A stretch of DNA of 64,000 nt from Scenedesmus sp. ARA3 (Eukaryota > Chlorophyta > Chlorophyceae > Sphaeropleales > Scenedesmaceae). A model generated the notes under the pieces. The model was given only the letters and a program-made list of their open reading frames with translations. It had not been told where the DNA came from and did not search any database. Shown in pieces: positions 1,024 to 55,107 of this stretch. The first letter of the stretch is position 1. Every line of letters starts with the position of its first letter. The position numbers and the translations under genes are program-made. Location of the stretch: the NCBI GenBank assembly GCA_004335835.1, contig RWJK01001232.1:4636-68635 (forward strand). Reading direction: 5' to 3'.

Positions 1024-2990
1024 ATCACCCTGCTGCTGCTGCTGTTGCAGCTCCTGAAGCTTCTTGCCCAGCGTGCCCAGCCGCTGCACCACATCCGGCA
1101 GCGCTGCTGCTGCTGCTGCTGTGCCGTCCTGCTGCTGCTGCTGCTGCTCGCCCTGCTGCTGCTGCTCATCTGCAGCCAGGCCTGCAATGTCCTTCATGAT
1201 GCCTGCCAGGCCTGCTGCTGCTGCCTCCAGGCTCTTGTCCGCAACAGGAGGGTACCTGCAGCAGCAGCAGCAGTAAAGGGCGGCACAGCAGCAGCAACGG
1301 CGGCAAAACACGTCAGCACAGGCACATAGCTTGGTTACTGCATGTTGCTGCCAGTCCTGCCTCTGCCACGACAGGTTGACCACCCAACTGTCACAAGCAC
1401 GGCACAGCAGCAGCAACAGCAGGATGCTGACGTTTCCAAAGACAGCCATTGCAGTCTCCAATAGCAACGATGCTTTAAACCTTAACCCCAAGCCCCTTGC
1501 AATCCCTAAACCGCACACCTGGGCCCCAGGTTGTGATAGAGCCTGAACATCACAAACTGCACCAGCATCGCGTAGAACTCCAAAAAGGCGAGCATCAGCA
1601 AGCTCAAAACCCTGCACCCTGTTACAAAACACCCCTAAACCACGCACCTGAGCCCCAGGTTGTGGTAGAGCTTGAACATCACAAACTGCACCAGTGTGGC
1701 GTAGAACTCAAGGAAGGTGAGCATCACAGTGAAGTCCACGTCAGCGGGCAGCACCTGCGCCAGCTGGTGGGGCACCAGCCACGTCACGCTGCAGCCCGCC
1801 ACCTCCGCCTGCAGGGTTCAAAGAATGATCATTTGTAAACGGTTTAGGTGTGGATAGATCAAACGATTTGGCCAGCTGGTGAGGGACCAGCCGTGTGACA
1901 CTGCAGCCCGCCACCTCCGCCTGCAGGGTTTCAAAGGCAGTAACGTGCGGAAAAGTTGGGTCTGCTGAGATCATACGGTTTAGCCAGCTGGTGGGGCACC
2001 AGCCAAGTGATACTGCAGCCCGCTACCTCCGCGTGCAGGGTTGAAGGCGTCACATGGGTCAACAGGTGCAGGGTTGAAGGCGTCACATGGGTCAACAGGT
2101 GCAGGGTTGAAGGCGTCACATGGGTCAACAGGTGCAGGGTTGAAGGCGTCACATGGGTCAACAGGTGCAGGGTTGAAGGCGTCACATGGGTCAACAGGTG
2201 CAGTTGTGTGCATAACAGCAACATGTGGCTGGCGGGACACCAGCAGCGTGACGGCGCGCGGCAACTTGCAGGACTGCCGCAAGCTGCCGTGCAAGTTCAA
2301 TACCCAAATGTGACATTAGGGTATGGAGCTTGCATGTTCAGGCACTGCACAACAGCAGCCGCTGCTAACGCCGCACCTGGTAGTAGAAGCCCTTCACGCT
2401 GACTGGGTGGAGGTTTTGTGGTGTAGGCTGTCTATCACATCAGAACCCCCAGCCGCCGCACCCACCTGGTAGTAGAAGCCCTTGACGCTCACAAACACGC
2501 GCCGCAGGCTGCTGGTGCGCGCCACATACGCGTTCCACTCCAGCACCAGACGCCGGCACCTGCAGCAGCAGCACCAGCACCAGCAGCAGCAGCACGATGC
2601 GGTCACAAAAAGCCAGCCGCAGGTGGTGCTGGCGTGCAATATGCTGCAGCCATACATACAAAGGCACAGTGCATGGTTGAAAGCCGGGTGCACAGCTACT
2701 CAGAATAATCAACTGATATGCTGCGGCTGTTTGCTGGCAGAATCTAATAATGTTCCCCTCCCTCACCCCCTGCATCATGCTGCATGCAACCACAGCCACT
2801 GCAGCCTGAACCAAAGCCACAGCTACATCGTGTAGTATTTACGGCCCCAGCCAGCCTCACTTGTCCACGGTTGATGCGCTGATGCCCAGCCGGCCCTCAG
2901 CAGGCAGTGTGGCGAACAGGTGCAGCAGCGTGAGCGGGTCATCCAGGTCACGCAGCGCATCAATGAAGGAAGGGTAGCTGCGGCAGAAAT

Positions 2991-3027
<37 letters not shown>

Positions 3028-3932
3028 TACACTTGAACGAGAGCAAGTCACAAATGCACAGCTTGTGATGGGCGATTAGGAAACAGGGGCACTGCAGCAG
3101 CAGTGAAGGAGGTAAAACCGCAACGCAAACAGTGTTACGGGGTAGTAACATACGATATGACAAAAATAACACATGTAACAGCAAAGTAACAACTCACCGC
3201 TCCCTGACCAGGTGGTCCAGCTTGTAGCCTGGCTTGGCCCTCATCAGGCGCCTCGCCAGGCTGAAGTCAGCCTTGGCGCGCACCTTGAATTATTATGGTA
3301 CAATAACACAAAGTGACACATATGTAACACATGTAACAACAACTCACCGCTCCCTGACAAGGTGATCCAGGTTGTAGCCGGCTTTGCCCTCAGCAGGCGC
3401 CTCGCCAGGCTGAAGTTGGCCTTGGCCCGCACATCCATGCATTACCGTTCAAAAACATAAAGTAACACAAATCAACACATGCTATAACAAGCTCACCGCT
3501 CTCTGACCAGGTGGTCCAGCTTGTAGCCCGGCTTGGCCCGCATGAGCCGCCTCGCCAGGCTGAAGTTGGCCTTGGCCCGTGCCTTGCTCACACGCCGCTC
3601 ATGCACCTTGACAGCCCTGCGGCAAGCAGCAGGCGGCAGCAGCACACAAGGTTTGTAAGCAAGGGTCCAGCACTGCTGCTGTGCTGCTGCTGTTGCCTAG
3701 GATACTACTGTTGTAGATGCTGCTGCTGCTGCTGCTGCTACTGCCATGCCAGCGCTTGTTGCCAGTTGGCCCCACTGCAGGCTGCAGCTCCGCGTGCACA
3801 GCATGCTGCACAGCAGCCGAGCCTGCGCAGATGCACCGGGCTCTGCGACGGCAGAGCTCGGCTGCGAAAGCCAGCCTGGAAGGTGCTTGCAGCACTGCAC
3901 TGCTGCACCCACAGGGCGGTGTAACCTGCAGC

Positions 3933-3967
<35 letters not shown>

Positions 3968-6538: not shown

Positions 6539-6572
<34 letters not shown>

Positions 6573-8708: not shown

Positions 8709-9584
8709 TCCGTTCACGATAATTGCTTTCTGTCAGGGGCTCAGAGCGCTGCATGCCTGGTGACGGATGCTCGTGTAGGTTGTCGATACCGACAAACGAC
8801 GGTATATCTTACGGCGTTAACTCAGTCCACCGTTTGAACGTCCTGCCTTACTCGCGAGATCGCCCGAAACGTCCTGAAGCAACCCTCGCATGCGACGATT
8901 TGAACATAACACCTGGTGACACCCGTGTGAAGGGGTTGTCATGAGCTGTATGTTTTTTAGTACTGTCTCACCAAGAAAAAACTGTTCCATAAGCTCCATA
9001 AAACTGTTCCATAAGCTACTTCACGCGCTCGCACTGTCTTCAACGGTCTCATTTCACGCACGCACACACTTGCCTGAGGACGATTACCCCCTACGCCTGA
9101 TCCTGATGCAAATTTAAGAAGATGTTTCACATATTCGGGATGGCCTTGCACTCAAAAGGCAGCAGCAGGGCTGGACCATCTGCTGGCAGCACCAACCCCA
9201 CACTGAACATGTGTATGTTGCGATGCTCGCACAACAGGCTGCTGCCCTGTGTGTTGCCTCTTGCACGGTCTCCTTTTGTACGCTTAGGCTGGCAGGACAC
9301 AGCTTCGTTCCTGCTGCACTGCTCCGCTAGCCCAGACTTGTTCTGCAACAGCACTGTGCTGGGGTTCAGGGTATGCAGTGTTACGAGGCTGGGCAGGCAT
9401 GGCAATTTCCAGCATCGATGCCCTATTACGGGAAATCGCATCTGTAAGTTCGTAGCAACATCGCAATGCTCAAGTTTGTGACGCACCAACGGCACTTGCT
9501 AGCTGAGGTATCAAATGTGACCAGCAGCAGCACCTGATGGGTCCGTGCAAGCTTGCTCTATTTTGATTCTCTAGTTGCTGTATA
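8709..9584. other. Divergent promoter region
   Basis: Lies between the starts of the LRR gene (minus) and the SIM-motif gene (plus), so it should carry both promoters. No coding exon or clear core promoter element was recognised. A 16-base repeat, ctgttccataagct, occurs twice near 8980-9015. Confidence 0.45.
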
Positions 9585-10707: not shown

Positions 10708-10762
<55 letters not shown>

Positions 10763-16318: not shown

Positions 16319-18772
16319 CATCAGACCTTGATGTGGCCACATGCTCAGTGGTTGCTGAACCTCAACTTCTAGCAGAAGCAGTGAACATTGGCTTGCAGCT
16401 GCTGCAGGGTGCCGCATGCTGCTGTAAGGTTCAGCAGCATAGCAGCATTGGTGCAGACATGCTGGTGGCAAAACCCATCTCTGAACAAATGTTAGCGGCT
16501 AACTCAAAGCCGCAGGCATAAGCGCCATCAGCAGTGCAGCAAGCATGGCAGCACTCTTGCACGCTGGGGCATGCGGATCATCACTGGCATGAAATGTGGT
16601 GCAATGCCATCAGCATGTGCTAGACCACGCCATCAGCGGCTGCACGCCACTCTGACCCAATACGACATTATCAATACACTTGCTACCTTTTTGCTAACAG
16701 TAGGGTACAAATTGTGTTGTGTTATAACACTGTTAGTAACATACAACAACCCACCTGGGTCCTTGATGAAGGCCAGCCCCTTCATTGAGCCGCCGTCTGG
16801 CTTCTTCACAAACTCCACACCCAGCCTGGCAGCAGCAGCAGCAGGCAACAGCAGTAGCCGCAGCAGCAGCAGCAGCAGCAGCAGCAGTCGCAGCAGCAGC
16901 AGCAGCAGCAGCAGTAGCGGCAACAGCAGTAGCGGCAGCAGCAGCAGCAGCATCACTGGTGCAGGCACATACAGGCTGCACGATGCGCACCACTGCTCGG
17001 CAATTGCGGTCAAACCCCAGCAGCATGCAAGGCACTGCTGCCTTGAGCCACACCAACCAAATGCACCTCTCTGCAGGCATGTGCCCCGCCAAACATGTCA
17101 CACACAGCTCCTCGTGCATCCGTGCTGCCTACGTGGGATACACTGCACGTGGATTTCCACTGATGGCTGCTGTTTAAGCTGCTGCCAGCGCCGCATCAAC
17201 GCAGCAATGCAGCACCAGCACGTGCTGCGCATATCTAATCTGCATGCACGAGGCTGCTGCTGCAGCCCTATTTTGTCAAGCTGCCTGCACTCACATCTCG
17301 AAGCGCTCACAGGCTGCATACACGTCAGGCACCGCCAGCCCTATGTGCCCAAAGCCCCTTGGGTCACTGTTGCCGCTATGGTAACCTGCACAACAGCAGC
17401 ACAACAGCAGCAGAACAGCGCTTTGGAACGAGCAGAGAATCCTGACAACCAGAGAGAGGGCAGAGACAGTAAAGCACATGCGGGCTGACCACTGGCAGTG
17501 TGATAGCGAGCACCAGGACACCTACACTGACATGCACAGCAGGAATGACAAAGGGTAGTTACATGTGGGTCCTGGCACCATCTCAGATGGTATAACTTAC
17601 AACAGGATGAGCACAACGCGTGAGGCCGGAAAATTGGATGATTGTGCCTGGGCATGCATGGGACAGGCCCTACCTGGGAAAGAGTCGTCGCTCTCCGTGC
17701 CCCAGTTGTGAGTCAGCTCCAGCACTGCAGGCCGGCTGAACATCCAGCGCGCCTGGCAGGATGGGAGGCGCGGCAGGTGGTGCGGGCGGCACACAAGGAG
17801 GAGCGGACAGCGTGTAAGAGAGAGCACAGCACGATGCAGCGGTACTGCATAGGATAGTGTGGCATCCTTGTCCAACGTTTGAGCAGAGCAAGGTGGAGTG
17901 CACACCGAACAACAGCATCGTGCTTTTGCTGCTCAGCTGCATTTGCACCGCTGCCTATTCGCAATTTGCTTGGCGCCAGCCCCCATCCACTACAAATCCA
18001 CTGCACAAAGCTTTCACTTGCATAACCCCAGTCATAAAAGCCAAAACCTCGTTAAACGCACCCTCTCTGCTGGGTCCTCTGGGATGTCTTCCTTTTTCTC
18101 ATAGCCCAGGAAGTACAGCCTGCACAAGCAGTAAGGCAAGCACACAAACATGCACACACAGAAAGCAAGATGATGTTGGCATTCATGTGCAGGCCACGTT
18201 CTCCTCCTTCTTTGCATAGCCCAGGAAGTACAGCCTGCACAAAGGGCGGGGTGCGTACACACGGCCAGAGAGACAGCAAGATGGTGTCATCATTCCTTGG
18301 CAGGCCAAGCATGTCCCACAGGCAGTGCTGGTGGTGCTGGCTGCTGCTGCTGCCACCTGCACAGCAGCTGCCCTGCCGCAGGTCCTGCAGGTCCTGTTGC
18401 AACCTGAATTCTGCCACCAGAGACGTCCACATCGGACAAAAATATCCGATCAGTGCAAGCAACCAGCCCACTCACACTGCCCTAATTGCCCCAAAACAGC
18501 GAGCTTCAGTGCAATGCTCGAATGAACCTCATGTCGGCACAGTCCAGCCTGGCCAGCAAATCGGTCAGCCAATCAGAAAAAGCAAACAGCTTCCTCACAC
18601 TACTGTTATCAGCCCAAAACCCGTGAACTTCAGGCCAGTGCTCACGTGAACTTCATGTCGGCAAAGTCCAGCTTGGCCAGCAGCGTCATGCCCAGCACGC
18701 GGGTGTAGAAGTCCAGCGCCCGCCCAGGCTCCTTCACACGTAGCATGGTCTAATTTTCCATCATCAGCAGCA

Positions 18773-24065: not shown

Positions 24066-24265
24066 AGCCACCAGCACATGATCAACAGCAGACCGCATGC
24101 TGCTGCTGCAACCCAATGCATTCCCAAGTGCACAGCAACATATGTGAGGCTCCCCTTCGCCTCTGTGCTGCTGCCTGCCTGCTGCCTGTGTCGCTGCTGC
24201 TGCCGCTCCCAGCCCGTCATGCTTAATGTTCAGCTGTTCAAACGGCAAGCTGTACCTTCTGCGTT

Positions 24266-27200
24266 CTACGCTGCTGCTCTGCCGGGTGCCTGCAGTCGCC
24301 TGCACACAAGGCTTCCCCTGCTGCTGCAGCAACAACTCAAGCACAGATGGCCACACATCACACCCTCACCTGAGCTGTTGCCCACGCCTCCGCCCACATG
24401 TGCTGCTGCCGCACTGGCCTGCAGCTGCTCAAAGTGGTGCGCCGCTGCTGCTGCTGCTGCTGCCGCCTCACTCCCCGGGTCACTCGCCAAGCTACCCATG
24501 CTGCCTAGGCCAGCAGCACCCGGGCCACCCATGCACGGCAAACTCATGCTGCTCAAGCTATCCGTGACATGCCCCACATCACTGCAGCTGAGGCCCTGCT
24601 GGTGCTGGTGCTGCTGCTGATGCTGCTGGTGTTGGTGTGGCCCACCCATAGGTGTAGCCGCAGGACTCGGGCCCCTACTGCCCATGCCTGCAGGCAAAGG
24701 CGTGCCCCCACTACCAGCACCCACCATCCCCGCTGCTGCTGCTGCTGCTGCCGCCGCCCCTGGGCCAGCGCCACTCAGTGGCATGCCGCCAGTCATAATG
24801 GGGTTTAAGCCGCCGCCGGTGCTGCTAGGCCCTGAACCGCTGCCGCCGGCACTGCCCAAGTGCTGCCCCAGTGACCCCAAATGCTGCCCCATAGATCCCT
24901 GAGGCAGCAAAGTGCCGCTGCTGCTGCTGTGCTGCTGGCTCAGGCCGCCGCTGCCGCCTCGTGTGAGTGCCCCGAGCTGGCCTGCAGATGGCGTGCGCAG
25001 GCTGCTGCGGCTGCTGCTGCTGCGCATGAGTGCTGCTGCTGCTGCCGCGTTGCTGCTGCTGCTGCTGCCGCTGCCGCTGCCGCCTGTCATGATCTCTGCA
25101 TACATCACTTTGAGCCGGAAGCCGGAGCCGGCTGGGAACTCGATGCCGTTGAGCTCTGCCACTGCTGCTGCTGCTGCTGCGGGGGTGGAGTAGTTGACGT
25201 AGCAGTAGCCCTGCAAGGGTTGCAGTACAGAAGGGTGCAGTGCAAGTGCAGCATAGCGTGAGCGTGGCTGCGGTAGGTATGCAGCGTTGGGCGTGGCGGT
25301 TCGCACTGTGAGCAGTGGCCTAGGGGTTGTGCAGGTGGCTTTTGCCAGTGGCCTCGTCCTTGTCAGACCACCTACCCCATGCTGGTGTAGCTGCGGAACA
25401 GCAGACACCACCTTGCGCAACCTGAACCTGCCGAGTATCCGCCACATCACCCACCTCACTCTTGCCAGTGGCCTTGTCCCTTCTTTGAGTTGTAGTACTT
25501 CAACATCAGGTGGCACAAACAGGTCAGACGCAATGACAGAAGACTTGGCACACGCAATCACCTTGCTCTTGCCAGTTGCCTTGTCCTCATTCGAATGGCA
25601 GGACCGCAGCAGAAAGTGCAAAAACAACTTCTTGCAAATCAGTCCTGCAGCCCACCTTGCTTTTGCCGGTGGTCTTGTTTTTTTTGGGGTCACATTAGAC
25701 CGTGCAAGGGTAGCTGCGAACAGCAGACACCACAACCTAAACCTGCCAAGTAAGTAACCGCCACACTGCTCACCTTGCTCTTGCCAGTGGCCTTGTCTTT
25801 CTTCAGGTCGCAGTACTCCATGCCGGGGTAGCTGCAGAACAGCAGACACCAGGATCTAAACCTTCCAAGTAACTGCCCCACTGCTCACCTTGCTTTTGCC
25901 GGTGGCCTTGTCTTTCTTCAGGTTGCAGCTTTGACAACGCGTGGCACAAACATACACAGACAATCAATTGGCACAATCATACACACGCAATCACCTTGCT
26001 CTTGCCGGTGGCCTTGTCCTTCTTCAGGCCGCAGTACTCCATGCCGGCGTAGCTGCAGAACAGCACACACCACAACCTCAACCTGCCAATCAACCGCCAT
26101 ACTGCTCACCTTGCTCTTGCCAGTGGCTTTGTCTTTCTTCCGGTCGCAGTACTTTAACAACAAGTGGCACAAACATACACAGACAATCCATTGGCACAAA
26201 CATACACATGCGATTACCTTGCTCTTGCCAGTGGCCTTGTCCTTCTTCAGGTCGCAGCACTCAGCACAAACAGACCCAGAACGCTGAACTAAATTAGACA
26301 CAAGCAATCACCTTGCTCTTGCCAGTGACTTTGTTTTTCTTCAAATCGCAGTAGTCAAACAAATCGTGCAATGAAGACTACTTGCAAACCACTCCTGTCG
26401 CAATCACCTTGCTCTTGCCGGTGGCCTTGTCTTTCTTCAGGTCACAGTACTCCATTCCTGGGTAGCTGCGGAACAGCAGCCGCAGCGAATCATCGCTGAC
26501 AGACTTATGCACAACCACAAACAGCCGCTGCTGGCTGAGCGGGGGACCACCCCCGCCATGCTGCTGCATGCCCTGCTGCTGCTGCTGCTGCTGCTGCTGC
26601 ATGCTGGCCGCCGCTGCTGCTGCTGCCGCCGCAAAGTCATGCGCGCTGGGTCCCATGCCCTGCTGCGCTGCTGCTGCCGCTGCTGCTGCCGCCATGTGTG
26701 ACATGTGCGTCATCATTGCGTTGTTGTGTGCTGCTGCTCCCGGGCTAAGCCCCATGAAAGGGCCTAACGGGAAATTCACATTGGTAAGGCTGCTGCTGAC
26801 GCTGCCCATGCTGCTGTTGTTGCCGGGGGAGGACTGGAAGGTGTTGTTGGGGCCCCCTGCTGCTGCTGCTGCCGCGCTGGCTGCTGCTGCTGCTGCTGCC
26901 GCGTGGCTGATGCCTGCCATGCCTGAGGTGTCTGGTGTGGACAGGGGCGTCATGAGGTGGTGGTGGGCGGGCCCAAGGCCAAAGCTCTGGAGGTTGACCT
27001 GCAGGGGAGCAAGGAAACAGGTACAGCACACCGGAGAATCAGTCTGCTTGCTCGGCAGCAATGCAATACCATAATTGTGACATGTGTCAATGTGGCGCAG
27101 CTGCTGCAGCAGGCTACTGTGTACAGCAAGACATTAGCAAACACGACTGCGAGCCATGCGCTGAAGTTGGCCGCTGCTGCATTTGACACAGACTTCCCAG

Positions 27201-28735
27201 ATGCGCATTTGGCGCCTAGCAGACGCAGCAGCTGCTGGCAGCTGCCGTCGGTAGCTCTGGCACCATCACACACCTGACACGTGCTGAAGCTGCTTGTGCC
27301 AGCTTCTGCTACAGTGCATTTGAAGCTATTGCAGCAGCCTCTTCTAGTGCGGCTTCATGCTGAGCAGCAGGTGCTACAGCATAGTTCAGGCTGCGACTAC
27401 AAACTGTGTGTCTCAGGCTAGCCGCCAGCTGGTCCTCACCTGCCCACCGAGCTCCATGCCACCACCCCCAGCTGCTGCTGCTGCCGCTGCTGCTGCTGCC
27501 AGCCCTGTTGCATTGTTGAACCCCATAAAGCCCTGCAGCGGGGTGTAATCGCCACCTGCTGCTGCTGCCGCCGCTGCTGCTGCTGCCGCTGCTGCATGGG
27601 GCGCGCCGGCGCCAAATGCTGCTGCTTGCTGCGCTGCAAACATTGTGTTTGCGGTGGCTGCCCCTAGCCCAAAGGTGCCAAACTGCCCCGCTGCTCCTGG
27701 CGATAGCCGCATTGCACCTGCAGGGTTGAGTTTGTTGGCAGTAGAAAAGCTTGTTTGAACCAGGAACACGTGCCAGCAGAAGGCGATAATAACAAATGCA
27801 GCAGCAGATGAAGCAGCAGCCACCAATTGCTATAAAATCACTTGGTCGCACTGCCGCAGCCACTGCCCCTTACGCTACTGCTGCTGCTGCTGCTGCTGCT
27901 GTCATCGCATCAACGCCAGATCAACCACTCACTCGCTGCGTCCAGCCCCACGGGCGGCAGGTGGCTCAGCCCACCCCTGAAGCATCAACACCGCACCCCT
28001 TGAAAACCATCTGCACCCCTGAACCCTGCTTGCTACTCACTGGCTGCATCCAGCCCCAGGGGTGGCAGGTGGCCCAGCGCGCCTCCCGGCCCAAACAGGC
28101 CCGGCACCAGAGCATGACATGAGGCAGCAGGCACCAGGCCCCCGAGCACTGCTTCGCACTGCCGCCGCTGCTGCTGCTGCTGCTGCTAGTCATGGCCCTA
28201 CAAGAGACCCCACCCCATCCGCAACACGTTCAAACACCCCTCATAACTTCATAACTAGTAACTCACTGGCTGCGTCCAGCCCCAGGGGTGGCAGGTGGCC
28301 CAGCCCACCCCTCAAGCATCACAACCGCACCCCTTTAACACCATCTATACCCCTGAACCCTGAACCTGAAGCTTGCTACTCACTGGCTGTGTCCAGCCCC
28401 AGGGGTGGCAGGTGGCCCAGCGCGCCTCCCGGCCCAAACAGGCCTGGCACCAGCTGCTCCGGCCGCGCGCGCTTGGTCTTGGGCTCAGCCAGCATGACCT
28501 TGACCTTGTAGGAGGCCAGCTGCGGCAGCAGCAGCAGCAGCAGCAGCAGCAAGAGATGAGCAGGGCCAGATCGATGTGTCACATGACAGCAGAACAGTGC
28601 GGTGGGCAGGCAGCAGGGGCTGAGTGGGGGAGGGATGTGTGCATCCCGCTGCTGCAGCAGCTGTTGCAGCGTTGCTGTTGCATGAACAGCTAGTACCCAT
28701 CACCACATGATGTGGGAGTGTTGCTGCTAGGTAAC

Positions 28736-28770: not shown

Positions 28771-28977
28771 AACAAGCCTTGCAATTGTCGTGACATGCTG
28801 CTGCTGCTGCCGGTAATGCTGCTGCCGTTGTTGCTCCTCGCTTGTTGCTCTGCTGCTCTAAACCCATAGAACTGCTGCCGCCGCTGCCATGTCGCACAAC
28901 GCACCATGCGCTTGCTGCTGCACCCGCCAGCACTGCCAGTGCGCTGCATTACCACTGCTGCTGCTTTTCTGTGACAG

Positions 28978-29017
<40 letters not shown>

Positions 29018-29842
29018 GCTGCTGTGTGCCACCACTCACCATGCCCTTGGCCGCCACGTCCTCCAGTGCTGCCAGTGCGCTGCATCACTACTGCTGCTTC
29101 TCTGTGACGACGCTACCAGGCTGCTGCTGCTGCTGCTGCTGCTGCTGTGTGCCACCACTCACCATGCCCTTGGCAGCCACGTCCTCCAGTGCCGCCAGTG
29201 CGCTGCATCACTACTGCTGCTTATTTAACAGCGCCGCTGCTGCTGCTGCTGCTGCTGCTGTGTCCCGCCACTCACCATGCCCTTAGCCGCCACGTCCTCC
29301 AGTGCTGCCAGTGCGCTGCTGGCCTTTGCGTACTTGACAAACACCACGCCCTTGCTGGAGATGAGGTCAGTCTTGCAATACTCCAGGTCAGGGTAGCGGC
29401 ACAGCTCCTCCTGCAAGGGTTTTGATGTGGGGTTTGGGGTTTAGAAGTGGGCAGGGGCAGCACAGCATGATGAGTTGTTGCGTTGTGTGTGAATTCGAAA
29501 TGATGTGTTGACGCACCAAAAGGCATGTGCAGTAATGACCCTGCCTGCTGCTTGGGCTGCAGCTGCTGCTGTTTTGGTGTGGCAGGTGACATGCTGACTC
29601 GCATCTTCTGCATGCACTGACGCTGTTGATACTGACATCATTGAGAGCATGGCGCATTGCTGCTGTTGCATTCTTGGCGCGCTTTCCTGCTGTGCATGCC
29701 ACGCGGCGCTGGCGGCAGCACCACACATGCTGCAACACGCCTGCTGCTGCTGCTGCTGCTGCTGCCTTTTCTTCACTGCAGCATTGATTTACTGCAGAAC
29801 TTCATGAGCGTAGCAGCTGCTGCTACTGCTGTTTTGGATGAT

Positions 29843-33744: not shown

Positions 33745-33803
<59 letters not shown>

Positions 33804-33853
33804 NNNNNNNNNNNNNNNNNNNNNNNNNNNNNNNNNNNNNNNNNNNNNNNNNN

Positions 33854-33908
<55 letters not shown>

Positions 33909-43945: not shown

Positions 43946-46900
43946 CTAATCCTCAGCCACTTCCTTCCTGGCATGCACACGCAAGTGCGCTTGATCGCAG
44001 CAGCTTCCACCACCAGCAGCAGCAGGCGGCAGCAGCAGCAGCAGCATCCCTGCAGCTTCCACCACCTGCAGCGCCACCTTGAGGTCAGCCAGCAGCAGCT
44101 TGAGCGCCTTGGTCCACTTGGCGTCCTTGCTCAGCAGCGACAGCCGCACCGTGTAGTTGCCCACCTGGCGGCAGCGGGTTGTACAGCAGGGTGCAGCAGG
44201 GCAGGCTTCAGGCGACAACGGATCTAAAGGCCATGCATGCAGAGGAGGGGTGAGCAGCGTCAGGCTGTGTGGCAATCCAACGCAGTGCAGCCGCACAGCA
44301 ACGTTTTTCCTGCAAGCTGCTGAACTGCCATTGTAGGCTATGCTGCTGCTAACATGGCGGGTGATGTGGAAGCACCACAGCCCAGCATCTGCTGCCACCA
44401 GCAGATGCTCAGCGTGCCTTGGCGCACCTTGTCACCCTCAATGGCGAAGGGGAACTCAAACAGGCTGGGCTGCCCCTCAGCAATGTCCCTGCAGCAGCAG
44501 CAGCAGCAGCGGCAGCAGTACAGCAGAAGCAGTACAGCAGAAGCAGAGGTCGGTGGCTGAGCCAGCTGATGCGCACAGCAACAATACGCACATACTGGCC
44601 CACCAGTCAGCAGCACACCTACAGGAGCTGTCCCTGCAAGAGCAGCAGCGCCAGCGGCAGCAGCAGCAGCAGCAGCAGCACAGCAAAAGCATTAGTCAGT
44701 GCAGCAGCAGCAGCAGCACAGCAAAAGCAGTAGTCAGTGGTTGGGCAGAATGACGGACGCAGTGCTAGCTTACGCACCCTCGCCGAAGATTGGCGGCGCC
44801 CCTACAGCAGCCTCACACCAACCCTACAAATCAAGCCCAACACCTGCCGGCAACCCATCAACGCCCATCATCAGATGCAGCAGCAGTCCACCAACATGCT
44901 GTCCCCGCGCCTATCGGCTCTTCCACCCCACCACATCACACAGTTCTGCAAGCCTCACCGTGCGCGCGCAAAATCACCAAACTCCTCATGCACCCCATGT
45001 GCATGAGCAGCTGCAACCGCTGTCACGCTTGGCGGCACTTTCACCGCACCACAGCGCAATGCAGCGCTGATTGCTCACCATCGCCGCGCAAAGTCGCCAA
45101 TTTCTTCAAGCAAGCCAGGAAGCCCGCCATGGCCTTGTCCAACAAGCCGCCCCATACCAGTGCTCTAACAACAGCCTAAACCCTTGCCCTTGGCAAGTTC
45201 TGCAGACAGCTGCAGGCAGCTTGCACCCATCCTTCCAGCTGGCCCCGACACATGGCCTACAACATCAGCTGCCGCAAGCAGCCCCACACCCAGGGACTTG
45301 CACCACACAACATGACACCACCGCCCTCACCGTGCCCGTGCAAAGTCCCCAAACTCCTTCAAACAAGCCAGGAAGCCCGCCATGGCCTTATCATAACTCC
45401 CGCCCCACAGCTTGGCCACGGGCCCAAACAGGTCGTACGTGCCACGCTTGTCGGCCACACGGGGATGGCTGCCCATCGGCAGCAGCCGGTACGCTGCGGC
45501 GGCAGCAGCAGCAGGGGCAGCAATAGGTATCATGGCAGCAGCATGAGAATATGCGTGTTCGCCACCCAAGGGTGGCTGCCCATCGGCAGAAGCCGATTCG
45601 CTGCAGCCAGCATCAGCAGCAGCGCCAGCATCAGCAGCGGCGGCAGCAGCAATATGGGCCAAGGCAGCAGCAATCACCATACTTGCAAAGTTGCACTCTT
45701 GAACGCAAGAAACTTGCTCAGTCCTCCACTAGCACTCGGCTTCAGACAGCAGCAGCCACACACGTTCGCCAAGACCTGCGCAGCGCAAGGCCGCACTCTT
45801 CTGCAGCTGCCTGAGCCCACACCCACACCCCACCCGCGCACCTGAGAAGTTGAGCTTGCACTGCGTCGCCATGGTGGCCAGCAGCAGCACCGCCTGGCCC
45901 CACGCCGCGTTGATCTCCTCCCACTCAACAGGGGCCTCGGGCGTGCGGCCCAGCCTGAAGCCGCTGATGGTGCCAAAGGGGCCGTCGTGCCAGATTCTGC
46001 AAAGGATGAAACCAGACACAAACAGTATGCTTGTTTGCGGGAATGGCAGAGATGTGCATGGTGTCTTATGTCGGTGCTGATGGTGCCAGAAGGGCTGCCG
46101 TCACGGATGCTGCTTTGCTGCTGCAGACAGCACGGCAGCGCAGGGCCAAGGCACAGGTGTGAGCAGCGTGCAGGCGGGGCGCGCATGTCACCACCATGAA
46201 CTGAACCCAACACGAGGTTGCAGCAATCACCTGAAGGTGTCGTTGAGCACGTTTGTTGACTTGAGCAGCAGCAGCTGCTGCCCCGCCCTGTCAATGCGCT
46301 GCAGCAGCCCGTCCCTCTCGCTGATATGCTGCTGCAGCGACAGCTGGTACTCGTTCAAATCGTGCCAGTAACGCTCCTCTAACGCTGCTATGTCCGCTGC
46401 GATGGCCTGCTGCGCAGCCAGCTCCCGCTGTACTGCTGTGAGTGCTGATTCAGCCTGGGCCTGCTGCTGCTGCGCTGCTGCTGTCTGTGCTGCCAGGCCT
46501 GCCAGCTCTGCTGCAAACTCCTCCTGCAAACGAGCAGTGTTCGAAACAGCAGTGTATGGAACAGCAGTGTACGCAACACCAGTGTACGGAGGCCAGAAGC
46601 GAAGTATAGTACAAGAGCTGACAGCTCTGTAGCAGCAAACTGACTGTTGGAATTGCTTGTCCTGCAAGCCAAACGCAACAGGGAACAAACAGCAGGGGAA
46701 GATGACAAAGCCTTGCATCGCTGTGTTCAATTGGCCATACCGCAACTGCCAGTGACACACTGCCCCAAATGCCTCCTGCTGCTGCACTTGGATGCACTGA
46801 CAACCTAGGCCAGCACTTGCACACCACACCTGCCCGCCAGCTGCACCCACCTCGCTGAGTGCTGCTGCTCCCTCCTCCCCCAGCTGTCGCAGCGCGTTTG

Positions 46901-48430
46901 AATACGCGCCGATCTCGCCCTCCAGCTCAGCCACCTGCACCCGCCATAACAACATATATTGTGATATGTGCCGTTTTCTGGTGGGTTGGTACTTTTGCTG
47001 AGCAGTTGCGTTCTAAGGACTGGCCACAAACATGCATATAATTCCCGCTCAGCGCACCTGCGGCTCAACCTCCTCCCGCAGCTGCGCAGCGCAGTCCAGG
47101 GTGACTGACCAAAATCCATATGCTAAACGACCAGCATCTTCCACTCATAACCCAAGGATCCCAACTCAGCGAACCTGCGCCTCAACCTCTTCGCGCAGCT
47201 GCGCCGCGCAGTCCAGGCACAGCAGATAACCAACGCATATCTCAACAACCAGCACTAACAATCAACCCGAAACCCACAGCAGCCAGGCCAGCGCACCTGC
47301 GCCTCCACCTCTGCACGCAGCTGCGCAGCGCAGTCTAGGCTGACTGACCAACCCCGTATGCACAGCGACACGCATGTGCCAGACACAACAGAGAGGCCTC
47401 AGCTCAGCGCACCTGCGCCTCAACCTCCTCCCGCAGCTGCGCCGCGCAGTCCAGGCACAGCGGGTGGTCCACGCCAGTTTCGCTGCTTGCCAGCTCACAC
47501 AGCGAGGCCAGCGCGTCAAGCTTGGCATCTAGCCCGCCACCAGCCGCACGCGCACTGCTGCTGCTGCTGCTGCTGCCGCCGGCGCTTCCGCTGCCTGCTG
47601 TTTGGCCTGCTGCTGTTGGTGGTGCGCTTGCAGGGGAGGCATGTACACCAGGCTGCTGCTGTTGCTGCTGTGGATGTGGGGTAGGGTCCTGGGTGCCTGC
47701 TGCATGTGCTGCTACTGCTGCAGCCTGAGCAGCTGCTGCTGCTGCCGGGCCTGGCCGCAGCACGCTTGCTGCTCCTGGAAGCACCACAAAGGACTCCTCT
47801 AGGCTGCGGCCTGCAGGAGGCCCGAGGCCAGCTGCTGCTGGCAGTTGCGGCCCTGCTGCTGCACCTGTTTTGTCATGTTACATTATCGCAGAGGATGACA
47901 GCAGTCAGTGTTGAAAGACCAGAGCAGGGTGGAAGTGCGGGCCAATGACAGACACTGCAGCCCTGTTGAAGAGGAGTTGGCACAGTTCTGCTTGCTGACA
48001 TGTTTGCAAGGCCAAAGTAACCCGAATAAGACACATCTGATACCAAAGGGTACAGTTATGTGGCTTGTGATGCATAGCGTGCACAAGCTGGCCTCCTGTA
48101 TGACCCAGCGGTGTGTGCTGCTGCTGCTGCTGATGTTTGAGCCCTGGGCAACTCGGATGGAGCCTGAACATACTTGCTGCTGGTGTAGCAGCACTCGTAC
48201 TTCGATCAGACGATTGAGCTGCGTTGGAGCGGCCTGTGGAGCTCACCCGGCCTTCTGTCATCCAAGACGATGAACGACTCGTATGTCTTGCCAGACTCGA
48301 ACACGCTGGCGTTCAGAGCTGCCCAGGAATCAGGTGGCCGTTTATCCCCTCCATCGCTGTCTCCACGGACTAGAACCAAGCGAGCTCTGCATGACTGGCA
48401 GAAGAAGGCTTGCTGCTGCTGCTGCTCCAT
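43946..48430 (-). CDS. ATG6: Autophagy protein ATG6 / Beclin 1
   Basis: Subunit of the class III PI3-kinase (VPS34) complex that starts autophagosome formation. Exons: about 48248-48430 ([17 protein letters not shown], an N-terminal Cxx[12 protein letters not shown]); 47413-47808 ([16 protein letters not shown], Gln/Ser/Ala-rich insert, [20 protein letters not shown]); about 46852-46932 ([16 protein letters not shown]); about 46231-46526 (coiled coil, [29 protein letters not shown]); 45842-45998 ([36 protein letters not shown]); about 45333-45500 ([29 protein letters not shown]); about 44430-44490 ([13 protein letters not shown]); 43946-44165 ([32 protein letters not shown]). This is the Beclin order of coiled coil and evolutionarily conserved domain. 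Several exon edges are multiplied in introns. Intron 6 ends in a CTG tract. Confidence 0.95.
44940..45430 (-). repeat. ATG6 exon end plus donor in three copies
   Basis: The exon end coding [19 protein letters not shown] and its donor (about 45330-45400) recurs at about 45080-45150 and, shorter, at 44955-44995. The segment is partly degenerate in the distal copies. Confidence 0.8.
45440..45605 (-). repeat. ATG6 acceptor plus exon start in two copies
   Basis: The exon start coding [15 protein letters not shown] (about 45455-45495) is repeated at about 45560-45600 upstream in the intron, about 105 bp away. Confidence 0.8.
47044..47460 (-). repeat. ATG6 exon end plus donor in four copies
   Basis: The exon end coding [14 protein letters not shown] plus its gtgcgc donor recurs at about 47405-47460 (attached), 47284-47340, 47161-47220 and 47044-47100. 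Spacing is about 118-122 bp. Copies differ by single substitutions. Confidence 0.92.
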
Positions 48431-48971: not shown

Positions 48972-51900
48972 CTACTGCTGCTGCTGCTGCTGCTGCTGCA
49001 GTGACAGCACCCACTCTGCCAGCGTTGCTGCGCCGAAGCCAGTAGGCAGCCCCGCGTCATCATCCCATGCCGGCCCTGCCACGTCCAGGTGGCCCCAGGT
49101 GACCCCGGGTGACACAAACTGCTGCAGGAACAGCGCGGCGGTGATGGCCCCGCCCCAGCGGCCTGCAGGTGCACATGCACACATAGGTGGAGCAGCAGAC
49201 CTCAATCAAAGCGGAGAAGTGTAGAATAGTAACAGCGCTGCAGTGATGGCACCGCCCCAGCGGCCTGCAGGTGTATGGAAGAAAGGAAGTGTGGGTGGGC
49301 AGCAGCAAGGATTAACACCAGCGAAGCCAATCAGGAACTGCAGCGCTCAGCAAGCGACAGGGAAGAGACAGGCGGTTGCAAGACAGGGCAGCACAGCACG
49401 TGCAGCAATGCTTCAAGCAGCACATGCCTACATGCGGCAATGCTTGCCGATGCCACTCCCTTCACCGCCAGAGTTGCTGGCTTCCGACATACACAGCGAT
49501 CATGCCCTGCAAAACTGCACTCTGATGTATTATACTCTGCCTTGCATATGGATAGCGTCAAGGGTGGTGTGTGTGCGCACCTGCATAGTTCTTCAGGTCA
49601 GCGATGGGTGAGTCCAGCTTCTTTGCTAGTCCCTTGTTCAGCGGCATGCGCCATAGCTTCTCGCCTGCAGCAGCAGCAGGAGGAGCAACAGCAGGGGCAT
49701 CATACAGCACAGAGTCAGCTCTAGCAGGTGTAAGCGGGTGCGAGCATGAACAGCCAAAGCGGCTGCATGCCACGCAGTCAGACAGCATGTTGCTGGTCAC
49801 CTGGCAGATGTGACAGCATCTCTGCATCAGCTCTTGCAGGTGCAGCAAAAGCAGCGGTGGTGGAGCAACCACACAACAGAAGCAGCAGATCACTGCCGCT
49901 TTTGAATCACGGGAGTGTGCAGCAGTCACCGCTTGGCCCTGGTCAGCTGCATTATAGCACTGGCGCCAGCAGCGGCAGCATCAGCTGCGCTATGCCTCAG
50001 ATACCAGGTGACCTGCCACTGCTGCCAGCTTGATCAAAGTAGGCACAGAGCCTAGTTGCATCAAGTTTGGCTGTGCTGAAGCTGCAATCGCCGCTGCAAA
50101 CATCCAGTAGCTTGCAACCAATTGAAACTACTTCTCTGTTTCAAACTAGTTGCATCAAGCTTGGCTGTGCTGAAGCTTCAGTCCATGCTTCAGCTGGCCA
50201 GCGCACCTGCCCGCCTGCTGGCTGCATCCAGGGATGCAGCCAGGGCGTCATCGTTGGCAAACAGCGCCCCTGTGTCCTGGCCCAGCGCAATGCCAGCTGC
50301 CCCTGTCAGTGTTGCGATGTCCACAACAGTCTGCAAGCAGGCGGTCACACACGTACATAGGGTGTGATGTAAGTACAGCAGGCATGTGGCAAACAGCGCC
50401 CCTGTGTCCTGCCCCAGGGCGATGCCGGTTGCCCCGGCTAGCGTGGCAATGTCGACCACAGTCTGTAAGCAGGGGAATGACATATGCACGTAGTTGCAGC
50501 AGGCATGTGGCGAACAGTGCCCCCGTGTCCAGGGCGATTCCAGCTGCGCCTGTCAGCGCGGCGATGTTCACCAAAGTCTGCGATGGCAAGCAGGGGCTCG
50601 ACATGTGTGCTGCCCATCAGCAGGCACGTGGCGTGTGCAAGAGGTAGCTGCAGGCAGGTGGCATCGCTGATACTCGTAGCGGCTTGCAGGCCCGCATCTG
50701 CAGCTGCATGCTTCGTTTGTGAGGATCGAGCAGCAGCGTATGCAGTGCTGTTCAAAAACATCCAGCTTCTGCGTCTTACAATTTAGGAATCAGGTTCACG
50801 CTGCCATAACTTGCGCTACTCATTGCGGTTGTTACAGCGGTGCAGGGCTACCTCAGACCAATCCCTGTAGCCAATGCAGCTGCTCCTGCACCTGCCGGCT
50901 GACGCATATGCCCCTGCGCATGGTACGAGCAGCTGGTAACGCGGAGTCAACCTCCAGGCAAGCCTGCGCTGGCTGAGGAAACCACCCTCACCGTTGCTTT
51001 CGCCTGGCTCTGCGCGTACCACAGCGCGTTAGCCAGCATATTGCAGCTGGGCATCGCAGCTCAAACAAGTGTCTAGTTTGTAGACAAGCTGGCGGCTCAG
51101 AGCATCCCAACTGCTGCTGTGCGTGTGCCTGCCGCCCTCACCGTTGCTTTCGACTGTGTTTGCGCGTACCACAGCGCGTCAGCCAGTGTGAGCCGCCCCT
51201 CAGCGTCAGTGTCGTTCACCTCCACGCTGATGCCTGCCGCGCTGACGTGCACGTCGCCGGGGCGGGTTGCCGTGGCGCTGACCATGTTTTCACAGCATGC
51301 GGCAATGAAGTGCACCTGCGGCAGAGGTGCAGGGGCAGGGCGTGCAGGGGTCCAGCACCTTGCACTGTGTATGAGGTGCACACACATGCGGGCCGCCACA
51401 GTTGCTGCCCTGGATATGCACTGCACTTTCGAAAACTGAAGGCAGCAGTGCAGCTTCCTCCCCATCCCCATGCCCACCTGCACCCGTGCTATCTCCAGCA
51501 TTTTCAGCAGCAAGCAAGTCGCACATCTTGCTGCAGCAGCAATGAGTCCGTCACACACCCACACCCACCCACCTGCACGCCAGCTGGCTGCAGCACCGCC
51601 AGACAGCAGCAGCAGCAGCAAGCACTTTCCCACACAACCCACTCACCTGCACGCCTGCTGGCTGCAGCACTGCCAATGACTGTGCCGCGCCCAGCACTGC
51701 CCCTGCTCCCGCCATGTCGCACTTCATGGTGTGGATGCCTCCCTGGGTCTTTAGGTTGTAGCCGCCTGAGTCAAAGGTGAGGCCCTGCAGCAGAAGAAGT
51801 AGCAGCAACGGCAGCAGCAGCAGCAGCGAGTCAAACAACAGCGATGGCAGGTGAGCCTGCTGGGTGAGGCAATGCACAGCATGAATGCAGCAGCTGCGCA

Positions 51901-52091
51901 GCAAGTACAGGCAGTGCCAGGCATGCTGCAAAGCATTCGTGCGCAGCAATGGCTGGAGGTTGAACGTCATAACGGCGTGCTACGGTTATGCAGGGTGCGT
52001 TAGCTGTACAGTTGACGGGTGCCTCACCTTGCCAACCAGTGCCACCTTGCAGCAAGACAGCAGCAGCCGCGCGCACAGCAGAAACAACAGC

Positions 52092-52125
<34 letters not shown>

Positions 52126-55107
52126 GGCGGGCAGCAGGGGCAGCCAAAGTAAAGGGCCAATTGCATAGTGGTTGGCGGTTACAATAAACGGTTGCTACAG
52201 GGTGCAGCTTGCAGGGCGCAGCAATCAATGCGCATTAGATCAGCAGCCCAGCTTGGGTCGCCACAGACAGCACCAAAACTGCAGCATATTATTCCAACCT
52301 GTCATCTCCTTTGCTTCCAACTGCGCCGCTGTCACGCACCACGCTGTGCAGCTGCCTTCTTTCGAGTGCTTTGCTGCACTGCACATGCGACATGCAATGC
52401 GCTGCCACCCACCACTTGCTTCACGGGCCCGTGCGGTGTGTAGGTGAGGTGCAGCAGCTTCAGCGGCTCCGCAGCGCCCTGAGCCACTCCCAGAAACAGA
52501 CCCATGCGCAGCGCACGCACCTGGGACTCATCAAGCACCTGTGGCAACATGCCGAACAGCAGCAGTAACGCAATGAGGGAAGGGTTGAGACATTGCCACG
52601 CCCAGGAACAGACCCATGCGCAGACCACGCACTGCGGGCTCGCCCAGAACCTACAGAGACACACGGCACAATGAATTTGTGACAGTTGAGTACACAGCAA
52701 AATCAGCTATGCAAGCTGCCTGCTGGAGCTGCCGTGTGCCGCAGCAGCACGCGCCTGGAACGCTGCCTTGCACACAGACCCTTACCAGTGCAGCGGGCTG
52801 GCCTGCATACACAGGTGCGCAGTTGTGCAAGTACCATGCCTACAACTGTCTTTTCCCACAAAAACAAGCAAGCACATTGTGTTTTTTCCTTTGGCCAGCC
52901 GCCAGGCTCACCTTGAGAGAGAAGTGGGCGGGGTCCAGTGCGGCAAGGTGTGCTGCTGCTGCTGCCAGGTGGCTGGGCGTGCACACGTTGGCGGGCGCTT
53001 CCACCAGGAACCTGGCCAGGCGCAAGCGCAGCATTGTTGCTTAGGCAGGGTGGTCATGTTACTCATGAGCGGCCGCAATGTCAGCGCTGGCGACAAGTAT
53101 ATCCTGAGAAGAAGACCTGGCTGTGCTGGCACCTGATTTGGAAGCGGCAAAGAGCCCAGGCATGGTCTCTGGCAGCAGCAGCAGCTGCAGCAGCAGCAGC
53201 GGCACTGCCTTTCCTGCTGCCTCAAACCACCGCACCCAGTGCACAACCTGGCCACTCACTGCGACATGAGTGTGCCATGCGCTAGAGCAACCCCACGCTC
53301 AGCTGCTGCGCGCAGCGCCGCCAGGCATGCTGCATCATCAGGATGGGCAGGCAGCACCAGCCTTATGCTGCCCAGCTTCACCTGCCAGTGCAGGGTGTGG
53401 GCCAGCGGTGCAGCATACAGCAGCAGAGCATGATGGCCAGAGCAAATGGAGCGCATGACAAACACAGCAAGCGGTGCAGCATAGCTCAGCACCACGGCCG
53501 TGCAGGCGCTGCCAGCGGCATGGCTGCCTGCCTGAACTAATGGTGTGGACGGCTGGCAACAACAGGCATTCTTGGCAACAACATGTTTTAGTTAGTGTTA
53601 TCATCTGCAGCTGTGGGTGAGCAGCCAAGCCAGCTTTAGCGCCACCCACCTTGCTCTCTGCCTTGCTGCTCCTGTACCTCACACTGCCCTCATACAGGCC
53701 TGACAGCGCAGCAGCAACAAAGCAGCTCATAGCACGCGCGGCAGCAGCTGCTGCTGCAGCCTCCTCATCTGTGTGGCTGCCTGTGCCGTATGCGCCAGCT
53801 GGCGGCACGTACAGCTCCAGCAGTGTGTTTTCTAAGCTGTACTGCTTGGCAGCAGCAGCCAGTGCTGCTCCGGCAGCCTGCAAGGCAGCCAAGCACCCAC
53901 AGACGGACAGCAGCAGCAATAATCTGTCTGTAATAGTCAGCAATCAAATGCGGAACACCTGCAGGTGAGCGTATGCGGCCGTGTTTAAGCATTCCTGGTC
54001 GGCAGCAGCTGCCAGGGCCACACAGCAGCCTGCAGCAGGGACGTACTGTACACAGGCACAAGTGCATCGCATCCAGCTGCAGCTGCTGGGTGCTGCGACA
54101 CGCTGTGTTAACTAGCAACCAAATGCTTGAGTGTGCCTTAGCCTATCTCTCACATGGTGGCTGTTTGTTCCATGCTGCACCTGGTGATTGCAAGGTCGCT
54201 GTTATGTGCATCGCCAAGGCGCACAGCAGTCAAATTTTATGCTTCGGGGTGCCTAAGCCTGTCGCTCACATGGTAGCTGTTTGCTCCCCAGTCCTCCTTG
54301 GTGAGGCTGGCAGCACCACCCAGGCCCAGCAGCAGCAGCGGCACAAAGCTTTCGGGTCCAGCGGCAAGCATCACAGGAGGCAGCACCTCACCCTGCAACA
54401 GCAGCAGTAACAGCAGTAACACTGCAAGTAGTGCTGGAGCTGCTCTTTTCGCCATGCAGACGGCTCATGCTAATATACATTCACTGGTTCACCCGATGCT
54501 CTGCTCAACACAGATATGGCATGTATGCCTCAGCACCATGACTGTCACCAACACTGGCACTCGTGGATTCGGTCCTGCTGTTGCTGCTGCTGCTGCCTCA
54601 CCTGTTTGCCCTTGAAGTCGCACTGTGCTGCTGCTGCCTGCACTGCCTGCTGCGCCTCTGGCGGCAGGCAGGCCAGCATGCTGCTGCTGCTGCTGCTGAG
54701 GCCTGTGCCTGCATGCAGCAGAGCATTGACTCCTTACGACACAAACACCATGGTCCTGGCCCCAATCCCTGCAGCCCTTTGAAGACAGCGACTAAGAACA
54801 GCAGCAGCATGCTGATCGATGCTGCACCGCATGCTCTCGACACCGCAGCTGCAAATGCGATGTGCGGCAGCAGATGGCGACTGCGCAACAGTGCACTGCA
54901 TGACAGTACGCTGCATCACAAGCACCTAAGGCAGCAGCACAGTTGAAACAGTCTGCCGTCACCTGCTGCATCCTCTGGCACTGCCAACACCAGCGCCTCT
55001 GCGCTGCGCAGCTGCTGCAGCAGCGGCTGCTCCAGCAGCGCCTGCCACTCCTCAACAGCTACGGCAGGCAGTGACTCTGGCTCAAAGGGTGCCGCAAAGT
55101 TCTGCAT
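48972..55107 (-). CDS. LAP: M17 leucyl aminopeptidase
   Basis: Two-metal hexameric peptidase family removing N-terminal residues. ATG at 55107 ([15 protein letters not shown]). Further exons, approximate: 54601-54670 ([15 protein letters not shown]); 54310-54395 ([20 protein letters not shown]); 53650-53880 ([18 protein letters not shown]); 53260-53382 ([20 protein letters not shown]); 52905-53015; 52420-52545 ([20 protein letters not shown]); 52028-52045 (VALVGK); 51646-51788 ([38 protein letters not shown]); 51137-51316 ([36 protein letters not shown]); 50205-50335 ([20 protein letters not shown]); 49585-49672 ([11 protein letters not shown]); 48972-49165 ([38 protein letters not shown]). 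Family residues present: Lys of [11 protein letters not shown], both Asp, and Asp/Glu/Arg of TDAEGRL; the usual NTDAEGRL signature reads DTDAEGRL. A plastid form as in plants is possible; no clear transit peptide seen. Confidence 0.95.
49130..49270 (-). repeat. Aminopeptidase acceptor plus exon start in two copies
   Basis: The exon start coding GRWGGAIT with its acceptor ctgcag (about 49135-49168) recurs at about 49235-49270. Confidence 0.8.
50265..50585 (-). repeat. Aminopeptidase acceptor plus exon start in three copies
   Basis: The exon start coding [20 protein letters not shown] with its acceptor occurs at about 50265-50340 (continues into [15 protein letters not shown]), 50385-50465 and 50505-50585. 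Spacing is about 120 bp. The most distal copy has changed to [17 protein letters not shown] with a small deletion. Confidence 0.92.
50985..51190 (-). repeat. Aminopeptidase exon end plus donor in two copies
   Basis: The exon end LADALWYAQ...KAT with its donor (51137-51190) recurs at about 50990-51045, about 145 bp downstream. The second copy has substitutions but keeps the gtgagg donor. Confidence 0.8.
52028..52045 (-). other. 18-nt microexon carrying the metal-binding lysine
   Basis: GTGGCACTGGTTGGCAAG (VALVGK), bounded by ctgcaag acceptor and gtgagg donor. In M17 peptidases this segment precedes GxTFDSGG and supplies the first metal-binding Lys; the next exon starts GLTFDSGG at 51788. No other AG lies close upstream, so the exon is very short unless a non-canonical acceptor is used. 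Confidence 0.7.
52495..52655 (-). repeat. Aminopeptidase acceptor plus exon start in two copies
   Basis: The exon start coding [17 protein letters not shown] (52490-52545) recurs at about 52595-52650 as [17 protein letters not shown], about 105 bp upstream. Confidence 0.85.
54130..54295 (-). repeat. Aminopeptidase exon end plus donor in two copies
   Basis: A segment with gctcacatggt(a/g)gctgtttg occurs at about 54245-54290 (next to the exon end SLTKEDWG) and again at 54130-54175. Confidence 0.75.

Follow-up and report, generated by a model that had tools for sequence, protein, structure and literature searches.

How introns grow is usually explained by transposons and diffuse insertions and deletions (indels), and the 64,000-nucleotide stretch of Scenedesmus sp. 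ARA3 DNA analyzed here (the window: positions 4636–68635 of contig RWJK01001232.1, in an assembly of 87.27 Mb and 1567 contigs) raises the question of whether they may also grow by copying the edges of their own exons. In five genes of the window, PES1, GLO1, an RBM45-like gene, ATG6 and an M17 aminopeptidase, introns hold tandem copies of the neighboring exon edge together with its splice site. These arrays had been described in an earlier note, which put their number at 15 or more; exon models and a copy search confirmed them in all five genes, and we counted 19 (score at least 24, within 1 kb of the edge; the RBM45-like array at 26408 was judged by eye), namely 4 in PES1, 2 in GLO1, 3 in the RBM45-like gene, 3 in ATG6 and 7 in the aminopeptidase, with neighbor-to-neighbor steps of 74–152 bp and two exceptions of 226 and 252 bp. 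The explanation that we favor, with moderate confidence, is that recurrent tandem duplications of ~115 bp crossing exon borders enlarge introns, that the authentic outer edge stays spliced, and that the exon parts of the copies are re-homogenized.

Exon models of the aminopeptidase and PES1 were built by spliced alignment, with an aligner admitting GT/GC-AG introns only, to the Tetradesmus obliquus proteins P0001 and P0121, which gave 13 aminopeptidase exons (24 edges, 7 with copies in the adjoining intron) and 9 PES1 exons (16 edges, 4 with copies). Both orthologous proteins are single-copy at all 11 duplicated edges and run through without the copies, indicating that no new intron arose at these edges and that existing introns were lengthened. 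The RBM45-like gene was aligned to P0314 and P0241. In protein comparisons, identity was 94% between the aminopeptidase draft and T. obliquus OEZ85_004757, 89% between the PES1 draft and a pescadillo of T. obliquus, and 92%, over 18% of the query, between the RBM45-like protein and one of Scenedesmus sp. NREL 46B-D3; judged by these identities, the organism is therefore a Tetradesmus-like green alga close to T. obliquus. Pfam domains identified GLO1 (Glyoxalase, 2.5e-16) and ATG6 (APG6, 1.1e-40), whose edges, like the RBM45-like edge 28384, are predictions of a small gene finder trained on genes of the window and run on 248 kb, comprising the window and 184 kb from other contigs. Of its training exons, this gene finder placed 11 of 13 in the aminopeptidase and 6 of 8 in PES1 exactly; it still fuses neighboring genes and puts one RBM45-like donor at 26382 where 26408 is correct, which leaves the ten-copy array at this donor under-represented in the statistics below. 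For the count of 19, the donor was taken as 26408 from the homology alignment, and weaker matches (score 20–24), the edges 21808 and 21975 (GCCA-rich low complexity) and the plus-strand edge 8011 (distant, score 24) were left out. An assembly artefact, which the earlier note had considered, is unlikely because the copies differ by ~10% and half of the spacers, i.e. the intron parts between copies, are not alike.

Copied edges were frequent throughout the 248-kb sample, where 125 of 611 predicted exon edges had at least one copy (218 copies at score at least 20, none in a reversed target; 362 copies at score at least 16, against 3 in the reversed-target control). The 611 edges include some from copies mis-called as exons; under a stricter rule with these removed, 75 of 571 edges (13%, about one in eight) carried copies. 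Exons shorter than 30 nt, 33 exons judged to be copies and matches without a mapped border were dropped before counting, as were copies more than 1 kb away in most analyses and genes without an open frame where codon position mattered. Affected genes include those for eIF4A (locus L013, matched to PDB chain 3eiq_A), coatomer alpha (Pfam COPA/B propeller) and a protein with a Pfam ODP domain that we take to be flavodiiron-like. One copy in the eIF4A gene was predicted as an exon and corresponds to an insertion absent from 3eiq_A, and 33 of the 378 exons called by the gene finder are probably copies, which is a warning for annotation. No link was found between copy density and GC content at third codon positions (rho 0.06).

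Duplicated units and intron growth

A unit consists of part of an exon, the splice site and part of the intron, the last being recognizably homologous in 29 of 58 first copies. Unit lengths peaked at 110–119 bp (33 of 122 units; median 123.5), with a mean exon part of ~51 nt and a mean spacer of ~68 nt whose lengths were inversely related (rho −0.77 and −0.61), indicating that total unit length is the fixed quantity and that the splice site falls anywhere within it. The first-copy unit measured 117.8 ± 15.3 bp in the 29 arrays with a recognizable spacer and 121.0 ± 18.1 bp in the 29 without (this comparison, like the tests of spacer recognition and spacer source below, was confined to units of 70–170 bp), and between-array variance did not exceed within-array variance (F 1.41, p = 0.20, 20 arrays), giving no sign of an array-specific length. 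Both edge types were affected (43 donor and 31 acceptor edges), which argues for a direction-blind process at the DNA level. At the far end of the copies, opposite splice sites (position weight matrix, PWM, score above 3 within 8 nt) were not in excess over control (0.15 of 74 and 0.04 of 48; control 0.17 and 0.08), and complete micro-exons or tandem mutually exclusive exons were therefore rejected in general; several RBM45-like copies are preceded by an AG, as seen by eye.

Copies were present in 58 of 309 introns, whose median length was 448 nt as compared to 296 nt for the others (p = 5e-5) and shrank to 218 nt once the array spans, 13.5% of all intron bases, were removed. The earlier proposal that tandem duplication across splice sites makes introns grow is partly supported by these results, namely by the unit length, the variable place of the splice site and the longer introns, and a sizeable share of introns (the 58 of 309) appears to have grown by stepwise copying of exon edges. 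Such growth is relevant to the long introns of T. obliquus, which average 462 bp, against 230–302 bp in the four further green algae tabulated with it (PMC5966456).

According to the favored explanation, tandem duplications of ~115 bp would recur in genes of this alga, and each segment that happens to cross an exon border would add to the intron a further exon edge and splice site. Splicing would keep using the authentic outer edge, since no other is joined to the complete exon and to its partner site, so that the copy would be tolerated and the intron would grow by one unit; the evidence for skipping comes solely from the orthologous proteins, and exon definition is presumed. Repeated events would yield arrays, of which exon-anchored ones would stay recognizable with one member presumably held by selection, while slippage or conversion over very short tracts would re-homogenize the exon parts with the real exon and the spacers would diverge, as the decoupling described below suggests. 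In the ten-copy RBM45-like array, which sits in the intron before exon 25210–24386 and in which some copies are degenerate and the last lacks a donor, two spacer kinds recur as a 221-bp higher-order unit (25373–26408), which suggests that copies slipped or exchanged sequence.

Internal gene duplication and intron creation were reportedly treated by Gao and Lynch in 2009, with small duplications inside genes said to be common, and to our knowledge that work reports no splice-site-anchored arrays at such density. By analogy, a candidate for the duplicating step may be the fill-in of staggered breaks: small tandem duplications arise from breaks with 3′ overhangs through fill-in by Pol alpha-primase and CST, as demonstrated in mammalian cells and not in this alga or at splice borders (PMC8355091). 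The type of event is known from single cases (PMC4974935, PMC2891723). In the potato RdRp gene, as here, a tandem duplication spans an existing intron-exon border and carries splice signals, but there a new intron arises, whereas here existing introns grow, with a ~115-bp unit, arrays of up to ten copies and about one in eight sampled edges affected (PMC4974935). The Rogers-type duplication likewise supplies splice sites by tandem duplication, but of an exonic AGGT proto-site instead of an authentic border (PMC4974935, PMC2891723), and introners, which also alter intron content genome-wide, are dispersed copies of one element, whereas the spacers here are essentially gene-specific (PMC9860276). 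The literature searches, which reached the sources in part and are not proof of absence in print, found no splice-site-anchored arrays in a green alga and no earlier description of such density, fixed unit and exon-limited similarity.

Decoy splice sites and coding constraint

As the earlier note had stated of many copies, the splice consensus is kept: among 74 donor and 48 acceptor copies, 65 and 43, respectively, had an intact site within 2 nt, and the T of GT was altered in 11–16% of donor copies. Median PWM scores of these decoys (6.2 for donors, 5.8 for acceptors) were near those of the real sites (6.5 and 7.3), the medians for all GT and AG in the sample being −0.8 and −0.1. The acceptor tract of copies had a median of 1.86, far above that of intronic AG (−2.57; p = 6e-17) and not significantly different from that of real acceptors (p = 0.16; 41 and 28 sites). 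In 24 acceptor copies with unrecognizable flanks the tract scored 2.21 (real 2.95) at 0.48 identity, where a neutral decay model gave ~0.6 to −0.4, whereas in 22 copies with recognized flanks it was weaker than in the real sites (0.99 vs 1.66); in this small sample, the kept strength is suggestive of selection or renewal. Donors of the unrecognized class (35) matched the real site in 0.97 of cases at +5 and 0.60 at +4, where 0.78 and 0.30 were expected for unrelated donors. These 122 decoy edges, each with ~50 nt of authentic exon, constitute a natural experiment through which exon definition can be tested directly in an alga.

The apparent frame retention of the copies proved nothing special, since changes private to one copy were only mildly biased to third positions (55/64/88 at the three codon positions, p = 0.013). 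Differences between a real exon and its copy were ~2.3-fold in excess at third positions, near the expectation for a free copy beside a constrained exon, and coding constraint as the main cause of copy similarity was rejected on both counts. A few arrays of repeated coding blocks with longer steps (L011, L013 minus strand and L020) remain in the codon-position, synonymous-fraction, per-position-identity and copy-to-copy counts, and also in the splice-site counts by flank class (+4/+5 and acceptor tract).

The copied edges might themselves be selected as decoy or alternative splice sites, for instance in splicing tuning or in unproductive transcripts. Their intactness at near-authentic strength, the acceptor tracts far above background and the +5/+4 matches of the unrecognized class, which look more like a consensus than like plain copying, would all fit. 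We nevertheless consider such selection unlikely, in view of the weak third-position bias in private changes and lack of clear coding constraint, the far ends that carry opposite splice sites at control level and so generally do not complete whole exons, the altered T of GT, the weakened tract in the recognized class, and the orthologous proteins, in which the copies were not found.

Exon parts, spacers and competing explanations

In half of the arrays, the similarity between copy and original was largely limited to the exon, although duplication of a contiguous unit should leave the intron part almost as recognizable as the exon part, once two freely evolving lineages in place of one are allowed for. 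Whereas 29 of 58 first-copy spacers exceeded the 95% null for similarity to the real spacer (spacer homology is still recognizable, for instance, in the PES1 array 3188..3586), the other 29 were unrecognizable, and in their arrays similarity faded 8–14 nt beyond the exon though the exon parts were ~90% identical. Exon identity was equal with or without a recognizable spacer (0.911 and 0.892, p = 0.33). Real-to-copy identity was 0.79–1.00 per position over the last six exon nt and, ungapped, 0.45 (donor) and 0.56 (acceptor) at 10–14 nt into the intron. Between copies, with no real exon involved, exon parts were 86% identical while only 32% of spacers exceeded the 99% null, and in 55 of 63 pairs the exon parts were the more similar. 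By this measure and by the simulation below, the repeats are more alike than independent decay of exon part and flank would leave them, a feature of concerted evolution by conversion or slippage. In the eIF4A gene (L013), a stretch of 56 exon nt and six intron nt recurs at 98% identity, with spacers that are unrelated. These values should be read with the frequent spacer gaps, the residual similarity ~8–14 nt past the junction and the short basis of many estimates (45–60 nt) in mind.

Several observations weigh against the favored explanation or its simplest form. Unrecognizable spacers made up 29 of 58 as compared to 4% in a neutral simulation, and at exon identity of at least 0.95 they were 7 of 15 as compared to 0%; simple neutral duplication alone fails on this decoupling. 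Decoy sites keep their strength where the flanks stop aligning, and the synonymous fraction of exon-part differences was 0.49–0.50, against 0.247 for random changes and, by our arithmetic, ~0.40 for a neutral copy beside a constrained exon, for which reason weak coding constraint or past coding history is kept open. At the end of aminopeptidase exon 51315–51142 the copy shares Ala (GCG) with T. obliquus, whereas its own exon has Ser; the copy therefore predates the Ala-to-Ser change and was not overwritten there, and this single informative site speaks against recent overwriting of that copy. Copy load was uneven across predicted genes (χ2 86 on 30 degrees of freedom, p = 2.6e-7): a window gene at 32512–40303 on the plus strand had copies at 0 of 28 edges, and one at 24256–27106 of the joined C1220 sample, presumably RPL8-like, at 0 of 10, whereas other genes reached 12 of 26. 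Copies at both ends occurred in 15 of the 58 copy-bearing introns; a uniform process explains neither this nor the uneven load. In addition, 69 of 82 clusters lay at exon edges where 30.8 ± 4.3 were expected under a local null (a 115-bp unit placed at random near each cluster). Moreover, outside three genes the exon models are gene-finder predictions. The copies may be kept alike by exon overwriting, by very fast spacer turnover or by selection on decoys, and we tentatively allow that exon edges may be masters that repeatedly overwrite the copies in the intron along ~50 bp, up to about the junction, and so make self-renewing arrays of working decoys that would be tolerated or even maintained through whole-exon recognition.

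The excess at borders bears out, in the 248-kb sample, the earlier expectation that tandem units overlap exon borders beyond chance. Of 91 tandem clusters, 69 were at an exon edge, 13 intron-only, 5 exon-exon and 4 intergenic; since 5 of the intron-only clusters lie in the window, the statement that the copied unit always includes a splice site was too strong. The excess is not clean proof of mutational bias, because exon-anchored copies stay recognizable longer: it is partly retention, an exon-anchored copy having a constrained partner and an intronic copy a free one. Full-unit recent clusters, which are few, were at edges in 7 of 8 cases against 3.3 expected (one of the 8 qualifies only via a 33-bp minisatellite). 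A mutational process acting at exon borders, one of the readings suggested in the earlier note, would amount to a bias at the birth of duplicates; such a bias is possible.

Under plain neutral tandem duplication with fast intron turnover, copies would arise anywhere and decay, and the spacers, changing several times faster and mainly by indels, would only look unrelated. Gap openings were indeed frequent in recognized spacers (4.37 per 50 nt, as compared to 1.02 per 40 nt in exon parts), the unrecognized class retains its residual ~8–14 nt of similarity past the border, spacer pairs under the null cut still score slightly above the null (p = 0.0035), and a spacer rate 2–3 times higher reproduces the overall unrecognized share (0.36–0.58). 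However, at exon identity of at least 0.95, a 2–4-fold rate predicts 4–17% unrecognized spacers instead of the 7 of 15 observed, and a 6-fold rate, which gives 33% there, gives 79% overall instead of 50%; the equal exon identity of the two spacer classes also disagrees, and we regard this reading as doubtful.

The eIF4A array, with its near-identical exon edge around unrelated spacers, would be expected if exon edges with foreign spacers had been inserted as mobile or template-borne DNA (introner-like, or filler DNA), and there was a small cross-locus excess of similar spacers (15 of 12,613 pairs at 14 or more, control 0). Yet spacers of different genes form no clear family (3 of 12,613 pairs at 16 or more, maximum 17.5, control maximum 13), and a family of elements is not supported by these pairs in the 248-kb sample. 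Exon-part and spacer lengths are anticorrelated (−0.61, part of which measurement noise may produce), unit length matches that of plain duplicates, and filler of random sequence would seldom bring a functional splice site to the border; such insertion is thus very improbable. A source of spacers elsewhere within 8 kb was likewise rejected: 8 of 43 scored above 16 in forward and 2 in reverse orientation (1 of 129 in shuffled or reversed controls), and the forward matches are expected because copies of the own array lay within the searched region.

Exchange with a diverged second gene copy, from a hybrid or homeologue, that placed the unit beside the exon would explain alike exons, unrelated introns and working splice sites together. 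The aminopeptidase and PES1, however, have one close locus each in the 87-Mb assembly (other listed hits are 44–66% and 28–46% identical, respectively), and third-position divergence is the same with and without a recognizable spacer (0.165 and 0.177), on which grounds a diverged homeologue was rejected and its exchange is held to be hardly credible. Overall, the arrays are genuine, common in the sample and regular in their dimensions, and recurrent ~115-bp duplication in genes, tolerated at exon borders through recognition of the complete exon, is their most likely root.

Arrays and other repeats of the window

The 19 arrays are listed in Table 1.

Table 1. Exon-edge arrays in the window (positions of the window; blank cells, no value given)
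Gene	Edge	Copies	Unit (bp)	Span	Strand	Remark
PES1	donor of exon 1808-1648	one (donor 1519)	129	1504..1726	-	
PES1	acceptor of exon 1808-1648 (EVAGCS)	1920, 2032	112 each	1759..2045	-	
PES1	donor of exon 2559-2466	2377	89	2374..2492	-	
PES1	donor of exon 3616-3497	3348, 3198	149, 150	3188..3586	-	
GLO1	acceptor, exon start 18119 (LYFLGYE)	18234	115	18087..18242	-	
GLO1	donor 18646	18522	124	18488..18682	-	GT lost in copy
RBM45-like	donor of exon 26560-26408 (CDLKKDKATGKSK)	ten		25373..26408	-	by eye
RBM45-like	donor 28384	28267, 28041, 27933		27927..28453	-	gene finder; distant homologue alignment ends 28380
RBM45-like	donor of exon 29410-29276 (ALEDVAAKGM)	29163, 29040, 28905		28900..29330	-	
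ATG6	donor 45331	45079, 44959		44953..45407	-	
ATG6	acceptor, exon start 45493	45600	107	45446..45651	-	
ATG6	donor 47413 (LREEVEAQ)	47297, 47175, 47058		47041..47461	-	
M17 aminopeptidase	acceptor, exon 49162	49264	102	49126..49273	-	
M17 aminopeptidase	acceptor of exon 50330-50207 (DIATLTG)	50462, 50577		50255..50581	-	
M17 aminopeptidase	donor of exon 51315-51142	50992	150	50982..51186	-	
M17 aminopeptidase	donor of exon 51784-51647	51573	74	51563..51675	-	
M17 aminopeptidase	acceptor of exon 52538-52413	52650	112	52483..52652	-	
M17 aminopeptidase	acceptor of exon 53877-53650	54029	152	53826..54040	-	weak copy (score 25.5)
M17 aminopeptidase	donor of exon 54392-54270	54154	116	54123..54287	-	

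Directly beside the acceptor-type array of PES1, the intron holds a perfect 33-bp minisatellite (2033–2203, 5.2 copies), whose unit was found nowhere else in the genome by an exact whole-genome search, and another PES1 intron stretch (~4797–4915) forms a long near-perfect inverted repeat, or hairpin, as seen by eye. Copies that resemble repeated coding blocks were seen on the minus strand of three loci of the sample (L013, ~8660–9437; L011, ~3084–3712; L020, ~700–2400); their steps are mostly ~200–310 bp, and they are a different sort of repeat from the ~115-bp edge arrays. CAG/CTG triplet runs are very numerous throughout the window, in introns and coding sequence alike, and a run of N marking an assembly gap lies within a CTG repeat at ~33804–33854. 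Two further minisatellites were observed, one of 49 bp at 57031–57151 (2.5 copies) and one of 30 bp at 63831–63923 (3.1 copies, perfect), the unit of which holds a palindrome.

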